Shown here piece after piece: positions 649 to 12,375 of a stretch of 32,594 nucleotides of DNA. Below the pieces are notes generated by a model. It was not told the origin of the DNA, made no database searches, and saw nothing but the letters and a program-made list of their open reading frames with translations. Origin of the DNA: an uncultured delta proteobacterium (GTDB lineage Bacteria > Myxococcota_A > Polyangia > Haliangiales > Haliangiaceae). The stretch covers positions 1 through 32,594 of the forward strand of contig CAADGB010000239.1 of NCBI GenBank assembly GCA_900696455.1. The letters run 5' to 3'. The position numbers and the translations under genes were made by a program. How positions within the stretch are numbered: the first letter of the stretch is position 1; each line of letters starts with the position of its first letter.

Positions 649-1464
649 TCACGCGGCGCAGCCGTCGAAGGAGTCCGTGCTCGCGTCGCCGTCGTTCGAG
701 GTGTCGAGCGGAGAGAACGCATCGTCCGAGTCGTTCGCGGCAAGCTCGTCCACAGCGATCTCGATCAGGCGGCCCTTGTGCCGCGCCACGGTCGCGATTG
801 GGACACCGCCGTCGCGTGTGAGCATGTCGCGGAGGTTCTCGCGAAGCTCACCCGGCACGTGCCCGCGCGCGGTCTGGAACCGGCGCACGAGGTTCTCGAA
901 CGATCGCGCATCGAGGCCAAGGTGCGTGGTCACCTCGCCCTGCCGGTGGACGCCGGTCTCGTACGAGTCGAGGAGGTCGAGGAGCGCGCGATCGGTCCCC
1001 GCCCGCAAGCGGAGGGCGTGGAAGATCTTGCCGCGGATCTCGCGCTGCTCGAACAAGCCATCCGGTCGCGTGCGCGGATCCTCGCGCCGCAGAGACATCT
1101 CGACGTCCAGCGCGGCCTCGTCCTGCGAGTCGTCCGCGCTCGTGGTGTCCAGCGGGATGTGACGGCGGCGCCGCGCCCGGTCGTACTCGTGCCACAGCTT
1201 GGAGTTGATCGTCTGCTCCAGGTGGCGCCGCAGCGTCCGCGCAGCCGGGTCCCAGCGCCGCACACCTGCGAGCGTGGCAGCGATGGCCTCGTTGACGATG
1301 TCGGTCGCCTTGCTCGGTTCGTGGCGGTTCTCGATCGAGAGGCCGCGCCCGACCTGGCGCTCGGCCCACATCGTGAGGTCACGGAGGAAGCCGGGCGCGG
1401 CCACCTCGCGCTTGATGCGCTCCATCAGATCAGGTGACGGAGGCACGGGGGGACGGTGAGCCAT
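649..1464 (-). CDS. Sigma-70-family (ECF-like) RNA polymerase sigma factor
   Basis: 271 residues. Residues about 45-105 look like sigma region 2: a helix with DIVNEAIAATLAGVRRWDP is followed by an Arg-rich helix with HEYDRARRRRHIPLD, the pattern of ECF-type factors. Residues about 135-215 (LLDLLDSYETGV, then THLGLDARSFENLVRRFQTARG) look like the region 4 helix-turn-helix. The C-terminal 45 residues are acidic and Ser/Asp-rich. An A/G-rich stretch containing AAAGGG lies about 10 nt before the ATG. The gene points away from the long rightward train of the element, and the 220-base gap between it and that train probably holds promoters for both. It is likely a cytoplasmic specificity factor for genes of the element (inference). 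No anti-sigma gene is visible nearby. Confidence 0.75.
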   Translation of the reverse strand: MAHRPPVPPSPDLMERIKREVAAPGFLRDLTMWAERQVGRGLSIENRHEPSKATDIVNEAIAATLAGVRRWDPAARTLRRHLEQTINSKLWHEYDRARRRRHIPLDTTSADDSQDEAALDVEMSLRREDPRTRPDGLFEQREIRGKIFHALRLRAGTDRALLDLLDSYETGVHRQGEVTTHLGLDARSFENLVRRFQTARGHVPGELRENLRDMLTRDGGVPIATVARHKGRLIEIAVDELAANDSDDAFSPLDTSNDGDASTDSFDGCAA

Positions 1465-2031: not shown

Positions 2032-3165
2032 ATGTCTGAGATCCACTTCGATCAGGAAGGCGAGCCGAACGAGCCGCACCCGTCCTGCACCGAAATCCGG
2101 TGGCGGTACTTCCCGAACCCGGGCACGCGTGGCGCGCCGCGCATCGTCCACGACAAGCGCAACGGGGGCGCGCCCCTCTACACGCCGGTGGACGTGTCGT
2201 ATGTGGAGCTGCGCGACCTCGTGGACAGCGTCGCGGGCTACTACCGCGGCGACCAGGTCGACCAGGCCCGGCGCCTGATCCCGAGCGTCAAGCCGTTCTA
2301 CGTGACGATCGCCGCGATGCCCCGGAACGCCACCGGCGGCGGCGCCGCCGATGACCTACTGGGTCTGTTGCGCCACTTCGCCGACGCCAACACGCGGCAG
2401 TCCGAGACGCTCGTCAACCAGGTGGCGGCCGTGATGCGCGAGCAACGGAAGACGCTCCGGGAGACGCGCAAGGTGATGCGCGTCGTGGCGACCGCGGATC
2501 TGCGCGAGGTGCTCGCGAAGTACGCGGCTACGATGAACGCACCGAGCGACGAGGACGACGACGACGACGACGACGAGGAGGAGACCGAGGACGAGGACGC
2601 GAGCGCAGGCGTGCTCGGCGACATCAAGGATCTCACGACCCAGGTGGTCTCGGCCTTCGAGACGTGGATGCTCGATCGTCAGGCGCAGCGCGCAGAGGCC
2701 GCCAAGGCGCGCACCGCCCAGCCCACCCCGGCGCCCGAGCCGGTACCCGCCCCGTCGCCCCCCGCCGCGTCGCCCGAGTCGACCACGCCGCCGCCCTCGC
2801 CGCCCGCCCCACCGCCGGCCGCGCCCATCCCGCCGCCGGCCAGCTCGGCGCCCACCGCACCGCCGGCCGCGCCCACCCCGCCGCCGACCAGCTCGGCGCC
2901 CGCCACATCGGAGCCGGCCGCGTCGGCCGAGACCCGTAACGCGGGGAGCCCGGTGCCGACGCCCGAGCAGTCCGCGCATCTGATGGCGATCCTGCACAGG
3001 CTCCAGCCATCCGAACGGACGATCGCGCGCGCCGCGGTCCATCGCATGCCATCGGACCAGCGGGCGCATTGGCTCGCCGAGCTGTCCCGTCTGACCGTCG
3101 ATCAAGCCGTCGAGCTGGTGCGCTCGACGATCGAGACCCGCACCAAGAAGGAGAGTGAGTCGTGA
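2032..3165 (+). CDS. Acidic/Pro-rich helical protein of the element (unknown function)
   Basis: 377 residues with no signal peptide and no recognised domain. The order is: a compact N-terminal domain (about 1-100, with RWRYFPNPGTRGAP); a long helical stretch (about 105-170, with RHFADANTRQSETLVNQV), likely coiled coil; and a run of Asp/Glu at about 173-190. A further helix is followed by a Pro/Ala/Ser linker at about 225-305 and a C-terminal helical domain (about 312-367). The tail motif WLAELSRLTVDQAVELV is echoed in the protein at 4429. GGGAGG lies 7 nt before the ATG. The end overlaps the next gene (GTGA, 3162-3165). The layout suits a structural or scaffold protein (inference). It is the first intact gene of the rightward train. 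Confidence 0.7.
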   Translation: MSEIHFDQEGEPNEPHPSCTEIRWRYFPNPGTRGAPRIVHDKRNGGAPLYTPVDVSYVELRDLVDSVAGYYRGDQVDQARRLIPSVKPFYVTIAAMPRNATGGGAADDLLGLLRHFADANTRQSETLVNQVAAVMREQRKTLRETRKVMRVVATADLREVLAKYAATMNAPSDEDDDDDDDEEETEDEDASAGVLGDIKDLTTQVVSAFETWMLDRQAQRAEAAKARTAQPTPAPEPVPAPSPPAASPESTTPPPSPPAPPPAAPIPPPASSAPTAPPAAPTPPPTSSAPATSEPAASAETRNAGSPVPTPEQSAHLMAILHRLQPSERTIARAAVHRMPSDQRAHWLAELSRLTVDQAVELVRSTIETRTKKESES

Positions 3166-4244
3166 TCGCCGTCCCCCTTCACACCAACCTGCATCCCGGC
3201 GAGCTGGAGGACGACGTGTGCCTCGGCGCCATCACCGAGGAGGTCGCCCGATGGGTCCGCGATCGAGATCCGGAGATCCTCGCCCTGGCGGCGCCTCACC
3301 GGACCACCGCCTCTCTCATCGAGGAGCTGCGCTCGCGTCCGTTCCTGGCCGACGAGGGCAACCCAGCCGAGACGCCGAAGGTGGACGCGTGCTCGCCCGC
3401 TCAGTGACTCCGCAAGAACCCGGCAGAGTTCAATTGCGTCGAGGCCGCCGCCCACTACCTCGCCATCGCCGAGCACATCGATCCGGGCCCGGTTCGACGG
3501 CTGGCCACGGTGAACACGCCGAACGGCCTGCACACGTTCCCGGTGGAGAACGGCGAGCCCGTCATCCTCGATCCGTACCACTCGCGCAACGCGCTGGCCG
3601 GCGCGCTGTTCCGCCAGGCCGCGAAGGCGCGTAACGCGTCGTGCATCGCGATGACCCCGGAGCGCACCGTCGCGTGGGTCGCGAAGATGGCCGAGGAGCC
3701 GGCGTGTGCCTTCCGTGACGGAGGTCGTCGGGTCTGCAACGGCCACCGGGCCGTGCGGGCGCTGTTCATCGGGGAGCCGCTCTGCATGGCCGACGCGAAG
3801 GACATCGCGTTCATGCTGGCGCTCGCCGGTCGCGAGTCCCATCAGTGGGGACCGGCCGGGCCGCGCATCGTCGAGGCCACCGCGCGCGCGGTCGACAAGC
3901 TCGACCAGGCCGCCGCCGAGGACTGGAAGGCGCGCACCGCGCCGGCGGTCCGCAACGCGCCCGAGCTGCGGATCGGCGGCTACACCCTGCGGCCGGATAC
4001 CGCGCTGCTCGGCGCGCTGGGCCGGGTCGGCGGCCGGCTCGGGATGCAGGCCGGGATCGAGGCGCTGCGGATCAAGCTCGCGATGCTCGGCGCGTCGCCG
4101 GCCATGCTGTCGACGGTCGAGCGGGAGCTGAACCGAGAGGGCCGCACGCTCGGCGCGCTCGCCACGCCGCCGCCGATGATCGGATCGCTCGCTGCGCTCA
4201 CCCCCGAGGCGCTCGCCGGGAGGTGGCTCGCCTCGAAGCTCTAG
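3162..4244 (+). pseudogene. Transglutaminase/cysteine-protease-like gene with in-frame TGA
   Basis: The GTG at 3162 overlaps the stop of the upstream gene, so translation is probably coupled. The frame is open for 81 residues, meets TGA at 3405-3407, then stays open to 4244 with no frame change. The joined product would be about 360 residues. Just after the stop is KNPAEFNCVEAAHYLAIAEH, then LHTFPVENGEPVILDP: a Cys...His...Asp arrangement like the transglutaminase-like/papain-like fold, with the putative nucleophile in NCVE, His in LHTF and Asp in LDP. The rest is Ala/Arg-rich and helical. No usable start lies between the stop and the Cys; the first is GTG 3510, which would omit the Cys. One changed base in a TGG, CGA or TGC codon would explain this. 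Alternatives are a sequencing error or readthrough. A hairpin terminator follows at 4280. Confidence 0.6.
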
Positions 4245-4428: not shown

Positions 4429-5172
4429 ATGTCCGAGACCACGCACACCACCATCAAGACCACCGCGAAGACCTCCACGGCGCGCCGCGTGACGCCGCGC
4501 CGCCCGAGCCGGCATCCCGATCCGGCGACCATCGCCGCGCTCGCGGCGGACGACGACGACGGCATCGACTGCGGACCCGCGATCGAAGCCATCGACGATC
4601 TGCTCGGCTGGGCCTTCGCCCTGGCGCGCAAGGACGTCGGCGACTGGCCCGAGGGCACCCGCCGGGTCCGCAGCGCGCACCGCTACGTCCGCGCGCTCCT
4701 GCGCGGCAAGACGCCGCGCACCGAGCCGCGGGGGGATCTGCTGTTCACCGCCGCGCTCCTGGTGCGCGTGTTCGAGGCCGAGATCGGGCTCGGGGTCGAT
4801 CAGGTCGCGGCGCTGCTCGACCAGCTCGGCCTCCCGCTCGACCACGCCCCGGCCGTGCGTCCCGTGCCGCCGACGCCGCAGCCCGTCCCGATCGCGCCGT
4901 CCGTGTTGCGCCACCTGCGCTCGATTCACGCCGCGCTCCCGCCCGTCGAGGCCGCCGCCGCCAGCGACGAGGCGCAGCGGCTGTCGCGCCCGATGCTCGA
5001 CGCCTGGATCGCCGCGCTCACGCGCGTCTCGGTCCCCGACGGTGCGCGCCTGGTGAGCGCCTACCTGCGCGGCGAGATCGAGGCGCCGACGCCCCGGCCC
5101 GCCGTGCGCGTCGCGCCGATGCCGTGCGTCGACTGCGTCGGTTCGCCCAGGCACTTCCGCCGGCCCGCGTAG
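4429..5172 (+). CDS. Helical hypothetical protein of the element with C-terminal CxxC
   Basis: 247 residues, not recognised. The N-terminus is Thr/Lys/Arg-rich and likely disordered (1-33), followed by DDDDG (41-45). A central helical domain (about 48-135) contains LLGWAFALARKDVG and GLGVDQVAALLDQLG. A short Pro-rich hinge lies at 142-157, then a C-terminal helical domain with WIAALTRVSVPDGARLVSAYL (193-213). That domain resembles the C-terminus of the protein at 2032. The tail carries PCVDC (240-244). There is no signal peptide or membrane segment. AAAGGAA sits about 7 nt before the ATG. The shared C-terminal domain suggests that both proteins bind a common partner (inference). Confidence 0.7.
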   Translation: MSETTHTTIKTTAKTSTARRVTPRRPSRHPDPATIAALAADDDDGIDCGPAIEAIDDLLGWAFALARKDVGDWPEGTRRVRSAHRYVRALLRGKTPRTEPRGDLLFTAALLVRVFEAEIGLGVDQVAALLDQLGLPLDHAPAVRPVPPTPQPVPIAPSVLRHLRSIHAALPPVEAAAASDEAQRLSRPMLDAWIAALTRVSVPDGARLVSAYLRGEIEAPTPRPAVRVAPMPCVDCVGSPRHFRRPA

Positions 5173-5216: not shown

Positions 5217-5816
5217 ATGAAGAAGAAGCCGAAGAAGCACGGGCGCCGCAACGCGGCCCCGGCCGGTTCCGCGCCCCGTCGGCGCTACATCCCCCGCCGC
5301 GCGCCGCTGCCCGGCTGGAAGGATGCGCTTGCCGCCGTCGTCGGCGGCGCCGGCAGCGCCGTCATCTCCGGGCTCGCGGTCAACCAGAAGATCGTGAAGC
5401 CGACGACCAGCGCCGCGATCATGATCGCGGGCGGCGGGGCGGCGGCGCTGCTCACCGAGGGCACCACGCGCGTCGTCGGCAACAGCGTCGCGTCCGCGGG
5501 CGCCGGCCAGCTCGCGCTCTCGCTCATGGCGAAGCGTGCGATCGCCGAGGAGACCGAGGCGCAGGAGCGGCGCGCGGCCGCGGAGAAGGCGGCGGCCGAG
5601 AAGCTGGCCGCCGAGAAGGCCGCCGCGGAGAAGCTGTCCGCCGAGCGGGCGGCGCAGGCGGCGGCCCAGCGCCCGCAGAGCGATCGAGGCGGCGGGTTCG
5701 TCACCTCGATGTTCCGCGACGCGATGAACGAGCTGGGCGAGCTGGGCGAGCCCGACTGGCGCGACGCCGACCTCGCCGGGGCCGACGTCTACGACCTGGA
5801 GGACCTCGCCGCGTAG
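5217..5816 (+). CDS. Basic membrane protein with Ala/Glu/Lys coiled coil
   Basis: 199 residues. I chose the ATG at 5217 because AAGGAG lies 10 nt upstream; longer readings lack support. The N-terminus is strongly basic (1-34: lysines at 2-7, then RRRYIPRR). Two hydrophobic Gly/Ala segments follow (about 36-57 and 66-80), and a weaker one at 93-105. A charged amphipathic stretch (108-151) built on repeats of AAAEK/KLAAEK is almost certainly a long helix or coiled coil. The C-terminus (160-199) is acidic, with MFRDAMNELGELGEPDWRDA. This reads as an inner-membrane hairpin with a cytoplasmic rod. Small phage membrane proteins and spanins have similar looks, but I cannot assign a family. Confidence 0.7.
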   Translation: MKKKPKKHGRRNAAPAGSAPRRRYIPRRAPLPGWKDALAAVVGGAGSAVISGLAVNQKIVKPTTSAAIMIAGGGAAALLTEGTTRVVGNSVASAGAGQLALSLMAKRAIAEETEAQERRAAAEKAAAEKLAAEKAAAEKLSAERAAQAAAQRPQSDRGGGFVTSMFRDAMNELGELGEPDWRDADLAGADVYDLEDLAA

Positions 5817-5904: not shown

Positions 5905-6360
5905 ATGGCCGACTACAACGTGATCGATCTCGACTACGACGAGCGCAACGCGCGTCCCCTCGCCATCGACAACCGGCGCCCCTCGGCGCCGGGGGTCCGC
6001 CGACCCTCCGGCGGGATCGTGGTGCCGCCGAGCGTCCGCCCGACGGTGATCACCGGCGGGGGTATCGGGGCGCCGCGCCCCTACTACCCGCCGAGCTACC
6101 CGGCGCAGCCGACGGTGGTCTACCACCAGCCGGCCCAGGCGGCGGGGCTCGCGGGCATGAGCAACGCCGAGCTGATCGAGCTGGCCGCGCTCGCGCTCAC
6201 CGCGCTCCAGCCGCTGCCCGGCGCCCCGACGGCGCAGGGTGACGTGGAGACCGACGTGGAGAACCTGGTGATCTACCAGACCGCGCTCGCGGGCCACGCC
6301 AAGCAGGTCGACCGCATCCGCGTGCTCGCGGAGGTGATCGGCAAGGTGATGCGGCGCTAG
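5905..6360 (+). CDS. Pro/Tyr-rich hypothetical protein of the element
   Basis: 151 residues, no homology recognised. Residues 1-80 are low-complexity and rich in Pro, Arg, Tyr and Gly (for example RPYYPPSYPAQPTVVYHQP at 58-76). Residues 82-150 are predicted helical, with GMSNAELIELAALALTALQP and then ENLVIYQTALAGHAKQVDRI. There is no signal peptide. The start is supported by AAAGGA about 8 nt upstream. It sits between two genes whose products look membrane- or surface-linked, all in one direction with short gaps, so a structural or assembly role in the same apparatus is plausible (inference). Confidence 0.7.
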   Translation: MADYNVIDLDYDERNARPLAIDNRRPSAPGVRRPSGGIVVPPSVRPTVITGGGIGAPRPYYPPSYPAQPTVVYHQPAQAAGLAGMSNAELIELAALALTALQPLPGAPTAQGDVETDVENLVIYQTALAGHAKQVDRIRVLAEVIGKVMRR

Positions 6361-6381: not shown

Positions 6382-6732
6382 ATGGACTTCCTCTTTCGCA
6401 GCAACGCTCCCGGCTACCGGAGCAAGGGCAAGGCGTCGCCGTCGGCGCCGAGCACCGGCGGGTTCCTCGCGAACCTCTGGTGCTCGCTGTTCGGCGGTGG
6501 TGCGGCGCCCTCGTACCGGAGCAAGGGGCAGGCGAGCGGCGCCACGGCGCCGGACGCGTCCCCGTGCTGGGCGGGTCTCTCGCAGACCCCGCAGTACAAG
6601 GCGCCCCCCGAGCCGTCGGACCAGCCCGAGCCCGAGCCGTCGTCGCCCGGCGACGACGTCCCGGAGCAGGACTGCCCGTGCGACGAGCCGGCGGTGATCC
6701 CCCAGGAGATCCACATCTACCCGGGCGGGTGA
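6382..6732 (+). CDS. Small protein with repeated P-x-Y-[RK] motifs
   Basis: 116 residues. APGYRSKGKAS (9-19) recurs as APSYRSKGQAS (42-52), and in part as TPQYK (69-73). Between the first two is a short hydrophobic Gly-flanked stretch, GGFLANLWCSLFGGG (26-40). The C-terminal half is Pro/Glu/Ser-rich and acidic with a DCPCDEP cluster (97-103). AAGGAGG lies 10 nt upstream of the ATG, one of the strongest ribosome-binding sites here, suggesting high expression. No family recognised; the repeated basic-Tyr motif may bind a partner or polymer (inference). The 127 bases after it hold no gene, only a GACT/TGAC-rich stretch near 6759-6780. Confidence 0.65.
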   Translation: MDFLFRSNAPGYRSKGKASPSAPSTGGFLANLWCSLFGGGAAPSYRSKGQASGATAPDASPCWAGLSQTPQYKAPPEPSDQPEPEPSSPGDDVPEQDCPCDEPAVIPQEIHIYPGG

Positions 6733-6859: not shown

Positions 6860-7939
6860 ATGGCCGATGACACCTCCACCGATGCACTCCTGGCCGGCGC
6901 GCTGTTCGTCGGCGGCGGGCTCGCCGGCTACTTCGGGAGCCGGTGGTTCCTTCCCAGGGAGGCGCAGGCGGCGGCGGCGCCGCTGCCGCCGACCGCGGCC
7001 AACGCGGCGCCGACCGCCGCCGCGCGGCCCGCGCCGACGATCGGCGTCAGCTCGACGCCGATCGCGGACCCCACCCCGATCGCGCCGGCCGCGCCTCCCG
7101 CGTCGCCCGAGCCGGTCGATGGCGGCCCGGTCACCTCGCCCGATCAGGTCGACGCCGGGCCGGTGACCTCGCCCGACCAGGTCCCCACCGCGGCGAGCGC
7201 CCCACCACCCGGATCGCTGCCGCGCACCTTCGATCCGCTGTTCGAGAAGTACCGGCGCGACGTGCCGATCGAGTTCCTCCGCGCGCTGGCGATGCGCGAG
7301 TCCGGCATGAAGCCCACCGCGACGGGCAAGGGCGGCGCCGCCTGGGGCCTGCTCCAGATCACCGAGGACGTGCGCGGCGACTTCAACCAACGGCACGGGA
7401 CCAGCTACGGCCGCGAGCGGTTGCTCGATCCGGCGACCAACATCGAGATCGCGTGCTGGCTCCTGCGCTTCATCGCCGACGGCTACCAGCGACGTCACGG
7501 CGACGTGCGCAACATGCGAACCGACTGGACCAACCCGCGCTATGTGGAGCTTGTCGTCCAGGGCTGGAACGCAGGATTCTCGGCCAGCGCGGGCGTCATG
7601 CGCGTCGTCGGCAAGCTCAAGGAGCTTGGCGCTCGCGACGTCGATATCGATCTCGTGGCGCAGAACGCCCGCTCGCTCGGCGGCGTCCGGTTCCTGTACG
7701 ACCCGGCCCGCGTGCGCTGGGCCAAGAGCGTCGCCGCTCTCTACCTCCGCGAGCGCTCGCTCTCCGAGCAGGCGCGCAACGGCTTCCTGACCTCCAACCC
7801 CGTCAGTCGAGCGGCGGGCACCGTGGCCCATGGCGCGGCCGGCGTCGCCGATGGCGTCGCGCACGCGCTCTTGATGGTGGGCATCGGCGCCGCCGTCTTC
7901 GGTGGCGTCCTGCTCGTCGCAAACGCACTGCGCGACTGA
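6860..7939 (+). CDS. Membrane-anchored lytic transglycosylase (SLT/lysozyme-like fold)
   Basis: 359 residues. A hydrophobic segment lies near the N-terminus (about 9-30, LLAGALFVGGGLAGYFG), followed by a Pro/Ala linker (38-120) in which GPVTSPDQV occurs twice (89-97, 100-108). A catalytic domain follows at about 123-250. Its signatures are ALAMRESGM, with the likely catalytic Glu at 147, then GAAWGLLQIT, then a segment ending in VVQGWNAGF. This is the SLT-type pattern of enzymes that cleave the MurNAc-GlcNAc bond of peptidoglycan. A second hydrophobic segment lies at the C-terminus (about 330-356). GGAG lies 7 nt upstream of the ATG. Having a hydrophobic segment at each end is unusual for a host housekeeping enzyme and resembles virion- or secretion-associated transglycosylases. 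It sits in the train with an M23 peptidase. Confidence 0.85.
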   Translation: MADDTSTDALLAGALFVGGGLAGYFGSRWFLPREAQAAAAPLPPTAANAAPTAAARPAPTIGVSSTPIADPTPIAPAAPPASPEPVDGGPVTSPDQVDAGPVTSPDQVPTAASAPPPGSLPRTFDPLFEKYRRDVPIEFLRALAMRESGMKPTATGKGGAAWGLLQITEDVRGDFNQRHGTSYGRERLLDPATNIEIACWLLRFIADGYQRRHGDVRNMRTDWTNPRYVELVVQGWNAGFSASAGVMRVVGKLKELGARDVDIDLVAQNARSLGGVRFLYDPARVRWAKSVAALYLRERSLSEQARNGFLTSNPVSRAAGTVAHGAAGVADGVAHALLMVGIGAAVFGGVLLVANALRD

Positions 7940-7958: not shown

Positions 7959-8354
7959 ATGTCGAACGCAACCACCGCCGCCCTCGCGCTCGCTCTCGGG
8001 GCAGGCGCAGGCGTCGCGATCTACCCCTTCACCCGCGACGGCAAGAAGCCGCCCGATCGCTCGGCGCCGCCGCCCGGCGCCACGACGGCGCCGGCCGGGC
8101 CGGGTACGCAGGTCGCGTCGAGCGTGACCCCCGCGGCCCCGCCGCGCAAGCCGGGGCCGTGCTCGCTCAAGCTCGACCGGAGCGGCCTCACGCTCGAAGG
8201 CGAGACCGTCGACATCGCGACCGCGGTCGCACGCTGCAAGGTCGCCGGCCGGGCCGAGCTGGCCGTCGCCCCCGATGCGTCGGTCACGGTCAACCGCGAG
8301 CTGTACAGCGCGCTGATCACCGCGGGTGTCGCCACCGTCATCAAGACCCCCTGA
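7959..8354 (+). CDS. ExbD/TolR-like membrane-anchored protein, copy A
   Basis: 131 residues. A hydrophobic N-terminal segment (about 5-22) is followed by a Pro/Ala linker and a compact C-terminal domain (68-131). That domain has the pattern of the periplasmic part of ExbD/TolR: LTLEGETVD, then APDASVTVNRELYSALITAG, then a beta strand. Cys68 and Cys93 are 25 residues apart, and the protein at 8369 has the same pair at the same spacing, so a disulfide is likely. AAGGAG lies 9 nt upstream of the ATG. No ExbB/TolQ/MotA-like partner is seen in the window. In the known families this domain binds peptidoglycan or couples the proton motive force. Here it may act as an envelope anchor (inference). Confidence 0.65.
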   Translation: MSNATTAALALALGAGAGVAIYPFTRDGKKPPDRSAPPPGATTAPAGPGTQVASSVTPAAPPRKPGPCSLKLDRSGLTLEGETVDIATAVARCKVAGRAELAVAPDASVTVNRELYSALITAGVATVIKTP

Positions 8355-8368
8355 CCGGAGCGCGGACC

Positions 8369-8785
8369 ATGGCGAACAACGACAAGGGCAACGACACCGC
8401 GATCACCGTCGGGGCCATCGGCGGCGGCGCCCTGCTCCTGTGGTGGCTGCTGCGCCGCGTCGGCGGCGGCTCCGGCGATGGGCACGGTGGCGAGGGCGCG
8501 CCGACGTCGGCGAGCCCGCCGGACGAAGCGCGACCGACCGAGGCGGCGCCCTGCGAGGTGTTCTTGCGCGGGAAGGTGATCGAGCTGGACGGCGCCGCGT
8601 CGGACCTCCCGAGCGTGATCGCGGCGTGCCGCGCGTCCGGCAAGGCGAACCTCCGCGTCACCGGCGACACCATCCAGGGCCATCTCGTCGCCTTCGTCCG
8701 CGCGCTCAACGCGGCCGGCGTCGCCATCTTCGCCCAGGGACGGCTCGCGACCACCGTCCACGACGCGGTCGTGAGCGGACGATAG
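8369..8785 (+). CDS. ExbD/TolR-like membrane-anchored protein, copy B
   Basis: 138 residues. A hydrophobic segment (about 11-29, ending LLLWWLLRR) precedes a Gly/Pro-rich linker and a C-terminal domain (62-121). From its Cys62 this domain aligns without gaps to the protein at 7959: of 60 positions about 18 are identical, including both cysteines (62 and 87), LxGxxxD, D at the loop, and AAGVA. The two genes are therefore tandem paralogues. This copy has a 17-residue C-terminal extension (ATTVHDAVVSGR). GGAG lies 8 nt upstream of the ATG. It probably forms a heteromer with copy A in the periplasm (inference). Confidence 0.65.
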   Translation: MANNDKGNDTAITVGAIGGGALLLWWLLRRVGGGSGDGHGGEGAPTSASPPDEARPTEAAPCEVFLRGKVIELDGAASDLPSVIAACRASGKANLRVTGDTIQGHLVAFVRALNAAGVAIFAQGRLATTVHDAVVSGR

Positions 8786-8787
8786 CC

Positions 8788-9768
8788 ATGCTGTCGCCCC
8801 TTCCCACCAGCCGCGCGACCTGGGTCTTCCCGGTCCCCGACCTCGACGGCCGCCGCCCCGAGGTCTCGGACGGGTGGGCGTCCCGCCGCACGACCACGAT
8901 CAAGAAGCCCGATCGGCCGGCGGTCACGATCCCGCGGCTGCACCTCGGCGCGGACATCATGTTCCGGCGCCGTCAGCTCGGCGAGCTGGCCGACGTCTAC
9001 CCGCCCGGCTCGCGCCACGGCACGGACCGCTACTTCATGCCGGACACGGTGCCGGCGCTGGCCGCGAGCGCTGGCGTCGTCGTGTACGCGCGATGGACCG
9101 GCGTCGGCTTCACGGTGAAGGTCTTCCACCCGGAGGGCTGGACCACCTACTACACGCATCTCTCGCACGTCTCGGTGGCCGTCGGGCAGACCGTCGCCGC
9201 CGGCCAGCCGGTCGGGTTCATCGGCTACGACCCCGGCGATCCGCGCAAGCTCATGCACCTCCACTTCGAGCTGTGGCGCGGCAGGGACGATCGCGGCGGC
9301 GTGACCAACCCCGGTCCGTACCTCGACGCCTGGGAGCGCCGCAGCGTGCCGTGGTCCTGGGCGACGTCCGCCAGGCGCAACGCCGGGTTGTCGTATCGCC
9401 CGGTCGGCGACACCGGCGAGCGTTATCCCGACTGGCTCCACGCGCTCAAGGGCAAGTCGGGCGTCTACGTGATCCGCGAGCGCCGCGCGAACGGGCGTCC
9501 CGTCGTCGTCTACGTCGGGCAGAGCAACACGGGCCGCCTGTTCGAGACGCTCACACGACATCTTCAAACCTGGCGCCGGTGGAAAGGCTTCTGGGCGGGC
9601 CAGTACGCCGAGGGGCATGACCCCGGCCTCACCTACGACCGTGCGCGCGTGGAGGTCGCCGTGCGCGTCACGTCCCCCGAGGAGGCGCTCGACGAGGAGG
9701 CGCGACTCATCGCGCGGCTTCGCCCCCGCGACAACGTGATCGGCCAACCCGACGACGTCCCCTTCTGA
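8788..9768 (+). CDS. M23 zinc endopeptidase fused to a GIY-YIG nuclease domain
   Basis: 326 residues. Residues about 45-185 form an M23 (LytM/lysostaphin-type) domain with the complete motif set: H52-x3-D56 (LHLGAD), H124 (YTHLSH), and H157-x-H159 (MHLHFEL). Such enzymes cut peptidoglycan stem-peptide cross-links. Residues about 220-318 form a GIY-YIG endonuclease domain: GVY at 225-227, YVG at 242-244, Arg250 (TGRLFETL), His258, a Glu at 303/304 (DEEARLIARL) and N316. No signal peptide or membrane segment is seen, so delivery must use lysis, a holin-like route or packaging. The gene starts 2 bases after the previous stop, so it is translationally linked. Each domain is common, but the fusion is odd. 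Confidence 0.85.
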   Translation: MLSPLPTSRATWVFPVPDLDGRRPEVSDGWASRRTTTIKKPDRPAVTIPRLHLGADIMFRRRQLGELADVYPPGSRHGTDRYFMPDTVPALAASAGVVVYARWTGVGFTVKVFHPEGWTTYYTHLSHVSVAVGQTVAAGQPVGFIGYDPGDPRKLMHLHFELWRGRDDRGGVTNPGPYLDAWERRSVPWSWATSARRNAGLSYRPVGDTGERYPDWLHALKGKSGVYVIRERRANGRPVVVYVGQSNTGRLFETLTRHLQTWRRWKGFWAGQYAEGHDPGLTYDRARVEVAVRVTSPEEALDEEARLIARLRPRDNVIGQPDDVPF

Positions 9769-9789: not shown

Positions 9790-10137
9790 ATGAACGATCT
9801 GATCGAAGCCATCCGCGCCGCGGTGACCCAGGGCGCGAACCCCGAACAGAAGGCGGTCGGCGCGCAGGCGTGCCGCACCATCCTGACCGCGCTCGACACC
9901 GAGGCCGGCAAGCCGCTGGCCGTGCCGAACGCACCGACGCCCCACCCGCTCTCGCAGATCGAGCCGGGGCAGGCGCTCGACCTTCTGATCGCGAAGCTGT
10001 CGGCCGGCCTCCCGAAGGAGGACGCCGCGGGAAGCTCCACGGTGCCCGCCGCCCTGGCACCGCGACGGGACCGGGGCCTCCGGATCGAGTTCGTGTCACC
10101 GCCGCAGCGGTCCGGTGCTCGTCGGAGGCGGTCATGA
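9790..10137 (+). CDS. Hypothetical protein at the end of the element train
   Basis: 115 residues, not recognised. Residues 1-80 are mostly helical (LIEAIRAAVTQGANPEQKA, later LDLLIAKLSAGLP); the C-terminus is Arg-rich (APRRDRG, then SGARRRRS). CAGGAG lies 7 nt before the ATG. The stop overlaps the next start (ATGA, 10134-10137), tying it to the excisionase-like gene. The basic tail could bind nucleic acid (inference). Confidence 0.6.
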   Translation: MNDLIEAIRAAVTQGANPEQKAVGAQACRTILTALDTEAGKPLAVPNAPTPHPLSQIEPGQALDLLIAKLSAGLPKEDAAGSSTVPAALAPRRDRGLRIEFVSPPQRSGARRRRS

Positions 10138-10469
10138 ACGGCGCCCGCACCTTCGAGGATCTGCTCCGCGACGTCGTGCGCGGCGTCGTGCGTGAGGAGT
10201 TGCACGCCGCGCTCCAGGCGCAGGCGCGCCGCAACGCGCCGGGTGAGGCCGACGACGAAGGCGAAGGCTACATGTCCCTCGCGCAGGCCGCCCGACTGGC
10301 AGCGGTCGCGCCCGGCACGATCCGCCGATGGATCCGAGAACGGCGCCTCAAGGCGTCGCGGGCCGGGCGCGTCTTCCGCATCCGGCGGCGCGAGCTGGAG
10401 CGGTTTCTCGCGGCGCCCGCAGAGAGCGTCATCCGGGAAGCGCAAGCATTCCTCTCCGACGCGGCTTGA
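10134..10469 (+). CDS. Excisionase-like helix-turn-helix protein
   Basis: 111 residues. An amphipathic N-terminal helix (1-30, LRDVVRGVVREELHAALQA) precedes a MerR/excisionase-type HTH (about 44-92): SLAQAARLAAVAPGTIRRWI, then the basic wing RLKASRAGRVFRI and RRRELERFL. This is the pattern of helix_turn_helix_17/AlpA-type DNA-binding proteins, which often serve as recombination directionality factors. It overlaps the upstream gene by 4 bases and precedes the recombinase by about 240 bases. A role in excision or regulation of the element is likely. Confidence 0.75.
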   Translation: MNGARTFEDLLRDVVRGVVREELHAALQAQARRNAPGEADDEGEGYMSLAQAARLAAVAPGTIRRWIRERRLKASRAGRVFRIRRRELERFLAAPAESVIREAQAFLSDAA

Positions 10470-10492: not shown

Positions 10493-10503
10493 ATGTAATA
10501 CAT
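10493..10503 (+). promoter_or_regulatory. ATGTA-A-TACAT inverted repeat over a start codon
   Basis: The perfect 5-bp arms end inside the ATG at 10502. The repeat contains TGTAAT, a possible -10 box. It could be an operator for the ribbon-helix-helix-like product, or a promoter giving a leaderless mRNA. There is no ribosome-binding site here. Confidence 0.35.
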
Positions 10504-10708
10504 GGGTCAGAAGAGAACGCCGGGCCCGGAAGCACTGGGACGGGCGATGTACGCCCGACAGCCCGTGTGCTTCCGTCTGCGCGACGCGGACCATGATGCC
10601 CTGCTCGCGCTCGCCGAGCGCGCGGGCGTCGGGCACAGCACCCTCGCGCGTCGCATCGTCGAGCACTACATCAAGGAGCACGCGCCGCGGAACCGGCGCG
10701 GGAGGTAG
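10502..10708 (+). CDS. Small ribbon-helix-helix-like DNA-binding protein
   Basis: 68 residues. A short strand-like segment (PVCFRLRDADHDALLALAER) followed by a second helix (GHSTLARRIVEHYIKEH) fits the ribbon-helix-helix pattern of CopG/Arc-type regulators; the tail is basic. It ends 2 bases before the recombinase start, so the two are probably co-transcribed. An inverted repeat covers its own start codon, as expected for self-repression (inference). It may instead be the cofactor of the recombinase. Confidence 0.65.
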   Translation: MGQKRTPGPEALGRAMYARQPVCFRLRDADHDALLALAERAGVGHSTLARRIVEHYIKEHAPRNRRGR

Positions 10709-10710
10709 CG

Positions 10711-12375
10711 ATGGGTTCGAGGTACTACCGGGGTGAGAGCATCTGGCTCAAGTACAGGAACGCGTCGGGCGACCTCGACCGAAGGGCGAGCGGCTATCGA
10801 CGCGGCCAGGAGAGCAAGGCGGACGCCTTGCTTCGGGAGATCGAGCGCCAAGTCCTGGAGGAGTCCCGCAAGACCCCGAAGCCGACGCAGGCGAGCGCCG
10901 TGGCGCCGATGGCCGCACCCCAGCCGGCCCATCCCGCGCCGTCGAACGGCACGACCGCACCCACCCATGTCGATGCGCCGACCGTGAAGCAGTACGGCGA
11001 GCAGTGGATCGAGCGGCGCCGGGGCCACATCGGCTCGGTGGACGACGAGGAGACCCGGCTGGCGCTCCACGTGTACCCGTACATCGGGAGCATGGCGCTG
11101 CCCGACGTGAGGCCGCGCCACATCCGCGACCTGATCTGCACGATCAAGCAGAAGACCAGCGACAGCAGCCGCAACAAGGGGCAGCGGCTCGCGCCTCGTA
11201 CGGTTCGCCACGTCTTCATGCTTCTGGGGCGCCTCTTCAAGTCGGCTGTCATCGACGAGCACATCGCCGCGAGCCCGGTCGTGATCGAGAAGGGGCTGCT
11301 TCCGAAGAACGTCGACAAGGATCCGTCGTGGCGCCCGACGGCGATCTACGAGCGAAAGGAGCTGGTGCTCCTGCTCTCGCACCCACGCATCAAGGCCGAC
11401 CGCCGCGTGTTCATCGCCCTGGAGGGGCTCGCGGGCGTCCGGCATGGCGAGGCCGCCGGCCTGCGATGGAGCGCCTACGACACGAGCTGCGAGCCGCTGG
11501 GCAAGCTGATCGTGTCGCGGTCGTACGAGAAGGACGGCACCAAGACCAAGGCCACCCGGGAGGTGCCGGTGCATCCCGTGCTCGCGCGCATCCTGACCGA
11601 GTGGAAGGAGCACGGCTGGGCGAAGCGGTACAAGCGCGCGCCGAGGCCGGACGATCTGATCGTGCCGACGCGCAACATGAAGCCGTGCTCGTCGACGAAC
11701 GCGCTCAAGCGGCTCCAGCGCGAACTCGCGCTCTGTGGCATCCGCGGCCGCCGGGCACACGACCTGCGCCGCACCTTCGTCTCGGCGGCCCAGGAGGACG
11801 GCATCCCGCCGCACATCGTCAAGATCTGGACCCACAGCGGGAACGGCGACGTGCTGAGCATGTACACGACGATCGCGTGGTCCGTGCAGTGCGCCGAGCT
11901 GATGAAGCTCACGATCGAGCTGCCGCCTGTGGACGCCAGCGCGGACCACGGCGACGACGACGGAGGGAACGACGGCGGTGGCGACGACGAGGAGCCGTCG
12001 ATCGCGCTCGACAAGGACGCGTGCGACGACGAGCCGGCGCCTCTCGCGGCGTCGCCCGACGAAACAATCAGCGTGCCCACTGTGCCCACTGTGCCCAGGC
12101 ACACTCCTGGGCACACTCCCGATTGTGCCCAGCGAATCTCCAATGATTTCGTGATCCCAGGAGGTCTCGAACCTCCGACCTACGGTTTAGGAAACCGTCG
12201 CTCTATCCGGCTGAGCTATGGGACCGCTGCGGGGCACTCTGCCAGCCCGGCGCCCGCGCCGCAACCCGCGCTCCGGACGCAACCCGCGCGACCGCGCCCC
12301 CGCCGCCGCGCGGTTCACCCCGCCGCGTGGACCAGGCGGAGCTGGCGGAGCGCGGGGTACTCGCCGCGGAGGTAG
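10711..12375 (+). CDS. Phage-type tyrosine recombinase (integrase)
   Basis: The open frame is 554 residues. Residues 1-55 form an N-terminal arm-binding-like segment, then a Pro/Ala linker (55-90), a core-binding domain (about 90-200) and a catalytic domain (about 212-400). Catalytic residues are visible: R244 (GVRHGEAAG), K280, H350-x-x-R353 (AHDLRRTF), H375 (THSG) and Y385 (SMYTT). The domain ends near residue 405, followed by an acidic tail (ADHGDDDGGND). No stop occurs before the tRNA: from about residue 481 the frame is the antisense of tRNA-Arg and then host DNA to 12375. The last 75 residues are thus an integration artefact, and the excised form would have a different C-terminus. It integrates the element into the tRNA 3' end. 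Confidence 0.9.
   Translation: MGSRYYRGESIWLKYRNASGDLDRRASGYRRGQESKADALLREIERQVLEESRKTPKPTQASAVAPMAAPQPAHPAPSNGTTAPTHVDAPTVKQYGEQWIERRRGHIGSVDDEETRLALHVYPYIGSMALPDVRPRHIRDLICTIKQKTSDSSRNKGQRLAPRTVRHVFMLLGRLFKSAVIDEHIAASPVVIEKGLLPKNVDKDPSWRPTAIYERKELVLLLSHPRIKADRRVFIALEGLAGVRHGEAAGLRWSAYDTSCEPLGKLIVSRSYEKDGTKTKATREVPVHPVLARILTEWKEHGWAKRYKRAPRPDDLIVPTRNMKPCSSTNALKRLQRELALCGIRGRRAHDLRRTFVSAAQEDGIPPHIVKIWTHSGNGDVLSMYTTIAWSVQCAELMKLTIELPPVDASADHGDDDGGNDGGGDDEEPSIALDKDACDDEPAPLAASPDETISVPTVPTVPRHTPGHTPDCAQRISNDFVIPGGLEPPTYGLGNRRSIRLSYGTAAGHSASPAPAPQPALRTQPARPRPRRRAVHPAAWTRRSWRSAGYSPRR
12073..12131 (+). repeat. GTGCCCA repeat cluster beside the tRNA (possible recombinase arm sites)
   Basis: GTGCCCA occurs at 12073, 12082 and 12091 (9-bp spacing) and at 12125, and inverted (TGGGCAC) at 12108-12114. 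Bases 12091-12099 and 12106-12114 form a perfect 9-bp inverted repeat with a 6-nt loop. The cluster lies 21-79 bases from the tRNA 3' end, inside the integrase tail codons. This location fits arm-type binding sites of a tyrosine recombinase (inference). Confidence 0.65.
12152..12225 (-). tRNA. tRNA-Arg (anticodon CCT)
   Basis: A 74-nt cloverleaf: acceptor GGTCCCA/TGGGATC with one G-T pair, D arm GCTC/GAGC, anticodon stem ACGGT/ACCGT with loop TTCCTAA, and T arm GGAGG-TTCGAGA-CCTCC. Position 73 is A, and CCA is not encoded. It reads codon AGG. Its 3' end faces the integrase and is the likely attachment site of the element. Confidence 0.95.

Follow-up and report, generated by a model that had tools for sequence, protein, structure and literature searches.

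Small tailless integrated phages encode membrane-type proteins together with wall-lytic enzymes. In the phages of this kind that resemble corticoviruses and autolykiviruses, a small core is combined with site-specific integration and with slots for accessory genes (PMC11630473). An M23 peptidase and a GIY-YIG nuclease are both encoded by ArV2, where they occupy separate genes (PMC4205034), and in the literature library that was searched no paper combines GIY-YIG with an M23 peptidase. In the window analyzed here, a stretch of 32,594 nucleotides from an uncultured delta proteobacterium (contig CAADGB010000239.1, assembly GCA_900696455.1), the two domains are joined in a single open reading frame of 326 amino acids (8788..9768, plus strand), a combination that the initial annotation, made from the sequence alone, had regarded as unusual. 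The same fusion recurs in 23 of 38 copies of a mobile element. The fusion belongs to a multi-copy family of integrative elements that are inserted in tRNA genes of MAGs of the Kofleriaceae type.

The frame and the coordinates of the fusion ORF were checked and are correct, and the possibility of a chance ORF or an artefact is dismissed by full-length homologues that are 81% identical. The joining of the two domains is borne out by Pfam, by profile comparison and by fold matches. The M23 half matches PF01551 at residues 82–165 (9031..9282, plus strand) with 68.8 bits (E 4.8e-19), well over the Pfam cut-off. In the AlphaFold2 model of the fusion (pLDDT 83), the complete M23 fold extends from about residue 4 to residue 185, with H52 and D56 located upstream of the part matched by Pfam. 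The five predicted metal and catalytic residues, H52, D56, H124, H157 and H159, which include the H-x3-D and H-x-H motifs, are invariant in 21 homologous fusions. Structure prediction, named as a check in the initial annotation, recovers both folds: the modelled N-terminal half matches several LytM-type peptidase structures with Z scores of about 16, and the modelled residues 206–319 match UvrC GIY-YIG crystal structures with Z scores of 8.2–8.6.

The assignment of the C-terminal half (residues 206–319; 9403..9744, plus strand) depends on this fold match, on profile comparison and on Pfam matches of relatives. A Pfam search of the window fusion itself gives no GIY-YIG match; PF01541 is found in 11 of 35 relatives, with a best E of 0.0029. 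The profile built from 38 element copies, when compared with the UvrC GIY-YIG profile, scores 50 (E 1.3e-8), against a best score of 20 in 40 column-shuffled controls. The residues G225-V-Y227, Y242-V-G244, E303/E304 and N316 are invariant among the 21 fusions, and G225VY, Y242VG, E304 and N316 align with UvrC. Of the key residues originally proposed, GVY, YVG, E303/E304 and the five M23 residues stand, but R250 does not, as relatives have K, N or Q in its place. The arginine that is invariant in this half is R257 (in TRH), which in the profile alignment is offset from the catalytic arginine of UvrC. Judged by profile and predicted fold, the GIY-YIG half of the window fusion is a divergent GIY-YIG nuclease.

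The linker that precedes the GIY-YIG domain is modelled with pLDDT below 50, and within it R197-N198-A199 (9376..9384, plus strand; pLDDT <50 at residues 193–199) is a putative processing site. The absence of a signal peptide, as originally stated, is true of the window copy and of its nearest relative (locus L075), but many related fusions possess a single N-terminal hydrophobic segment. All aligned fusions end in an invariant Pro-Phe (window 9760–9765, residues 325–326; alignment A5), possibly a docking tail. A fusion 60% identical to that of the window is encoded on a 3.4-kb contig (L031) of a MAG labelled Thermoflexales (Chloroflexota), which reflects either misbinning or long-range transfer.

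Across the elements, the GIY-YIG domain is the constant component and its partner changes. M23 is the fusion partner in 23 of the 38 copies, a protein of the c8 family (with C3-type domains) in five and a c10 protein in one; the remaining nine are short separate ORFs, and the elements that contain them encode M23 in another nearby gene. Two distinct M23 lineages are joined to the nuclease. The GIY-YIG half is more conserved than its partners (mostly 60–77% identical to that of the window), is present in a single copy in each sampled element and retains its key residues. Since M23 and GIY-YIG occur as separate genes, their joining is not needed. The separate genes of sister elements, the exchange of partners and the motif in the linker together suggest a precursor that is later cut apart. 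Accordingly, the fusion itself is real, but the proposal that one protein is used for both activities is improbable, and the wall enzyme and the nuclease probably do not act as a single fused protein.

The order of the element core, as established from predicted and clustered genes of 41 loci, is c9-c5-c6-c1-c1-c7, followed by an SLT transglycosylase and/or a C3-type protein, c10, M23/GIY-YIG, c2, small genes and a recombinase of the tyrosine or serine type. Genes for c11, c25 and an ImmA/IrrE-type peptidase are often found ahead of it. In the window, the gene left of the core, c11 (649..1464, minus strand), is conserved in this position and encodes a putative regulator that appears sigma-factor-like by eye and has no Pfam match. 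All the genes from c9 to the integrase lie on the plus strand. The first core gene, c9 (2032..3165), encodes an N-domain, an acidic linker and a C-domain, with RN[AG] at residues 43, 98 and 302, and is followed by c5 (3162..4244), a putative transglutaminase-fold cysteine protease, and by a helical protein (4429..5172) that was recognized as c6-like by eye and not clustered automatically. Next come the hydrophobic, Gly-rich membrane-type protein c1a (5217..5816) and the small protein c1b (5905..6360), with Arg-Asn-Ala at residues 11 and 14, respectively; the small Pro/Gly/Ser-rich protein c7 (6382..6732); an SLT lytic transglycosylase (6860..7939) bearing a terminal hydrophobic segment; and two copies of c10 (7959..8354 and 8369..8785), both small and with an N-terminal hydrophobic segment. 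Downstream of the fusion are c2 (9790..10137), a small protein of helical appearance that is conserved and occurs in most sampled elements; c21 (10134..10469) and c22 (10502..10708), by eye HTH/excisionase-like and ribbon-helix-helix-like, the latter small; and a tyrosine integrase (PF00589; 10711..12375), the ORF of which extends into tRNA-Arg(CCT) (12151..12225, minus strand), at which the element is integrated and which forms its right end. Beyond the integrase and the tRNA, ordinary chromosomal genes follow (PilZ, GGDEF, SurE, PheT). Upstream of several other elements (L162 7073–8350, L158 8044–9099, L161 4883–5986, L099 18347–19405) there are recurrent regulators that combine an FHA domain with an AAA-lid or HTH part; these probably belong to the control region of the unit.

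Searches of the core against Pfam and PHROG detected no recognizable capsid, packaging ATPase, terminase, portal, relaxase or secretion genes. In the window core, the PHROG scan returned profiles of the wall-lytic type, including M23 and SLT domains known from tail and head proteins, besides weak matches to profiles of unknown function, with no terminase, portal or major capsid protein among them. Neither Pfam nor PHROG indicates a double jelly-roll capsid protein in the core (the fold comparison covered c5 and the fusion), and for relaxases and type IV secretion ATPases there is no Pfam match in the core, the window unit being covered from contig base 1 on. The conserved core families include no P-loop protein, only chance matches to the motif.

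The mobility of the elements is evident from their number, their insertion sites and their sequence identity between genera. The genome from which the window derives (73% GC; some of its close relatives are MAGs under the labels Kofleriaceae and Myxococcales) contains six GIY-YIG copies, and many related genomes contain several. In most loci that extend to the recombinase end, this end is located at a gene for tRNA or tmRNA, and many different tRNA genes are used; none was seen there in some loci, e.g., L068, L072, L073, L078 and L079. One element is hosted by a tmRNA gene (L096 6341–6698). The sole clear flanking repeat is a perfect 46-bp copy of the end of tRNA-Gly at a distance of 31.2 kb (L099/L160), and therefore whole units can exceed the 10-kb core. 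A left attachment repeat was found neither for the window, where the contig begins at base 1, nor for most other loci. Between elements from two genera (genomes G000 and G009), the DNA identity is 93.8% over 9.9 kb, whereas the pheT genes of the same genomes are 76% identical, which points to recent horizontal transfer.

Among 379 sampled genomes of the phylum, the GIY-YIG profile detects only this family and, in one further family (f25), two genomes; scans of viral contigs with the P0001, c5 and GIY-YIG profiles confirmed no relatives, and in phage and plasmid collections similarity is found at the level of M23 only (c9 is too little conserved for a profile scan). Besides a protein that is transglutaminase-like by eye, the f25 islands encode M23 and small hydrophobic proteins, and their GIY-YIG domain has a gene to itself; the recurrence of this combination supports a functional link between its components. 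A comparison of c5, c9 and c1a with their f25-island analogues does not support homology, and the f25 island that was checked (L148) shows no enrichment of the Arg-Asn motif. The gene sets of four such islands (L154 8678–18088, L148, L155 and L156) comprise an acidic protein with a beta-rich-looking C-terminus (possibly a capsid), the transglutaminase-like protein, a PG-binding protein, M23 and separate GIY-YIG; a ParA gene lies nearby in L155.

Between the GIY-YIG gene and c2 the elements contain a slot for variable genes that are unrelated from one element to another. In L064 (9893–14860), this slot is filled by CrcB, DUF190, enolase, a dynamin-like GTPase and an MFS protein, a set resembling fluoride resistance, in an element that is otherwise 94% identical; a Mom-like gene lies directly after the fusion in L066 (9279–9824), and a SUKH-1 gene in L071 (10762–11670), on the opposite strand and not common to other elements. 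Within the 31-kb tRNA-Gly unit, L160 (8455–17021) encodes type I restriction-modification and TIR/ThsB-like and caspase-like genes, and L083 (12234–18080) encodes a methyltransferase and LlaJI-type restriction genes left of the core, with a second serine recombinase at the far side. Given this restriction, TIR/caspase-like and fluoride-resistance-like cargo, the elements probably shape the defence and fitness of their hosts.

The protein c5 is a possible transglutaminase-fold cysteine protease with a Cys-His-Asp triad: C83, H115 and D128 are invariant wherever the sequences cover them, and the N-terminal domain of the c5 model best matches the cysteine peptidases PeiP and PeiW (pseudomurein endoisopeptidases) and CPR-C4, weakly, with Z scores of 5.5–6.5. 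The structural matches (Z <8) include an unrelated axoneme protein among the top rows, and a Foldseek search of the model against the PDB and viral models returned nothing at E <0.001. The window copy of c5 has an in-frame stop (3405–3407) between the N-terminal part and the catalytic cysteine, where other elements are open, and so the element in the window may be decaying or may rely on another copy.

A candidate substrate motif emerges from the element proteins themselves. The tripeptide Arg-Asn-Ala (RNA in the one-letter code) occurs 172 times in 313 element proteins against 23 expected, an approximately sevenfold excess in which the sites are not independent because the proteins include homologues; in the host proteins of the same loci, 9 are observed and 8.4 expected. 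The enrichment is seen in all 16 elements tested singly (11 against 1.2 in the window), and a few small host sets (L079, L073) also are high. In an unbiased tripeptide scan of 24 families, Arg-Asn-Ala is found in at least 40% of the members of 11 families and ranks with the leading tripeptides when families are counted, the sole leader not built from common residues. Ahead of the GIY-YIG domain, RN is present in 37 of the 38 copies and RN[AGST] in 32. The sites often lie at junctions, namely at the C-terminus of c6, at about residue 12–14 of c1b, and in c9 behind the N-domain and ahead of the C-domain; in c5, RN occupies two invariant positions that divide the modelled domains, with R244-N245 invariant in 17 of 17 sequences. 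Arg-Asn-Ala may therefore be where the elements' own protease cuts.

Under the scheme that these observations suggest, and to which an even chance is assigned, the fusion is a precursor, and c5 cuts between the wall enzyme and the nuclease within a virus-like module for crossing the envelope. The precursor would be produced by the tRNA-inserted elements, and its M23 half would be directed to the envelope, in many relatives by way of the N-terminal hydrophobic segment, where it would open peptidoglycan together with the element transglycosylase and the small membrane-type proteins; the GIY-YIG half would be the conserved DNA enzyme of the element. Cleavage by c5 at Arg-Asn-(Ala/Gly), both in the flexible linker of the fusion and in c5 itself, c9, c1, c6, c8 and other proteins, would then release the nuclease and bring about the maturation of a complex, virus-like or vesicle-like, that crosses the envelope and carries element DNA from cell to cell. 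The particle is a guess, because no capsid or packaging ATPase was found in the core, and the carrier may be a tailless virion, a vesicle or the particle of a helper. A bolder version, to which a low probability is given, is that the elements represent a new class of self-transmissible elements without a protein capsid, in which a membrane-vesicle-like DNA carrier composed of small membrane-type proteins, wall enzymes and nuclease is matured by an Arg-Asn-specific cysteine protease in Gram-negative Kofleriaceae.

That the Arg-Asn motif is instead a conserved interaction or structural element and the fusion acts uncut, for example by holding DNA at the wall-opening complex, appears rather unlikely. 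Cleavage is predicted from the motif, which in some proteins also lies inside apparently folded segments, and the first c5 site adjoins a helix; however, in c6, c9, c1, c8 and the fusion the motif is found in linkers or near the ends of the chain, and joining is dispensable where M23 and GIY-YIG have genes of their own. This variation in partners bears also on the notion of the GIY-YIG half as a selfish or homing-type module that attached itself to element genes: it is found with M23, c8 and c10 partners or alone and exceeds them in conservation, but its single copy per sampled element, its preserved key residues and the lack of any sign of insertion into intact genes make this highly improbable.

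The two remaining explanations assign the fusion a destructive role. As a delivered antibacterial effector, its M23 half would carry a GIY-YIG DNase toxin into neighbouring cells, and an adjacent gene would confer immunity; wall cutting and DNase activity fit this possibility, as do the SUKH-1 gene that adjoins the fusion in L071 and the usual proximity of c2. Nevertheless, it is unlikely: the nuclease is strongly conserved, unlike diversifying toxins, the SUKH gene is confined to the one locus and replaced elsewhere by unrelated cargo, no secretion system or delivery domain is seen, and the gene is tied to a mobile element. The original proposal of a delivered effector or virion-associated entry protein survives in part: a delivered or virion-associated entry protein is the best class of explanation for a protein of a mobile element that also encodes a transglycosylase and small proteins with hydrophobic segments, but a free-standing effector is unsupported, no recognized immunity gene being conserved next to the fusion, L071 aside, and c2, always nearby, being at most a candidate. 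Even less is to be expected of a role in lysis, in which SLT, M23 and nuclease would burst the host and degrade its DNA and would take no part in entry. Profiles of the phage endolysin type do match the M23 and SLT parts, but no capsid or progeny-making genes are recognized, a nuclease active at lysis would endanger the DNA of the element itself, and the many small proteins with hydrophobic segments do not suggest a holin–endolysin pair.

The element family is apparently undescribed, a tRNA-integrating mobile element with an apparently new module, and an odd domain fusion thus leads to a multi-copy, recently mobile family in poorly studied bacteria related to myxobacteria. If Arg-Asn-Ala cutting does take place, it would reveal how the parts of the element mature and which of them travel. 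With the M23/LytM domains of virions and endolysins, such as phi29 gp13 at the tail tip and the M23 domains of phage tape-measure proteins, the fusion shares the fold, the metal and catalytic residues and the predicted opening of the wall by a protein of a mobile element; it differs in the nuclease that is attached through a linker with an element-wide motif. The fold and the motif residues are those of the GIY-YIG superfamily (the N-domain of UvrC, homing and restriction enzymes), whereas the element copies contain an insertion of their own (WRRWKGFW...HDPG.TY), have wall enzymes and element proteins as partners and, in the window, escape detection by Pfam. PeiP, PeiW and CPR-C4, the top if weak structural matches of the c5 N-domain, have Cys-His-Asp in the same order, but c5 possesses additional helical domains that are set apart by RN motifs. 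The elements are similar to the small tailless integrated phages in their small core, integration and accessory slots, and also in their membrane-type proteins and wall-lytic enzymes; no double jelly-roll capsid or packaging ATPase is recognized in them, and they add the putative maturation protease and the RN motif. Finally, insertion in tRNA genes, a recombinase and variable defence and resistance cargo are shared with phage satellites and defence-carrying integrative islands, from which the elements are distinguished by a wall-opening and putative maturation module of their own.
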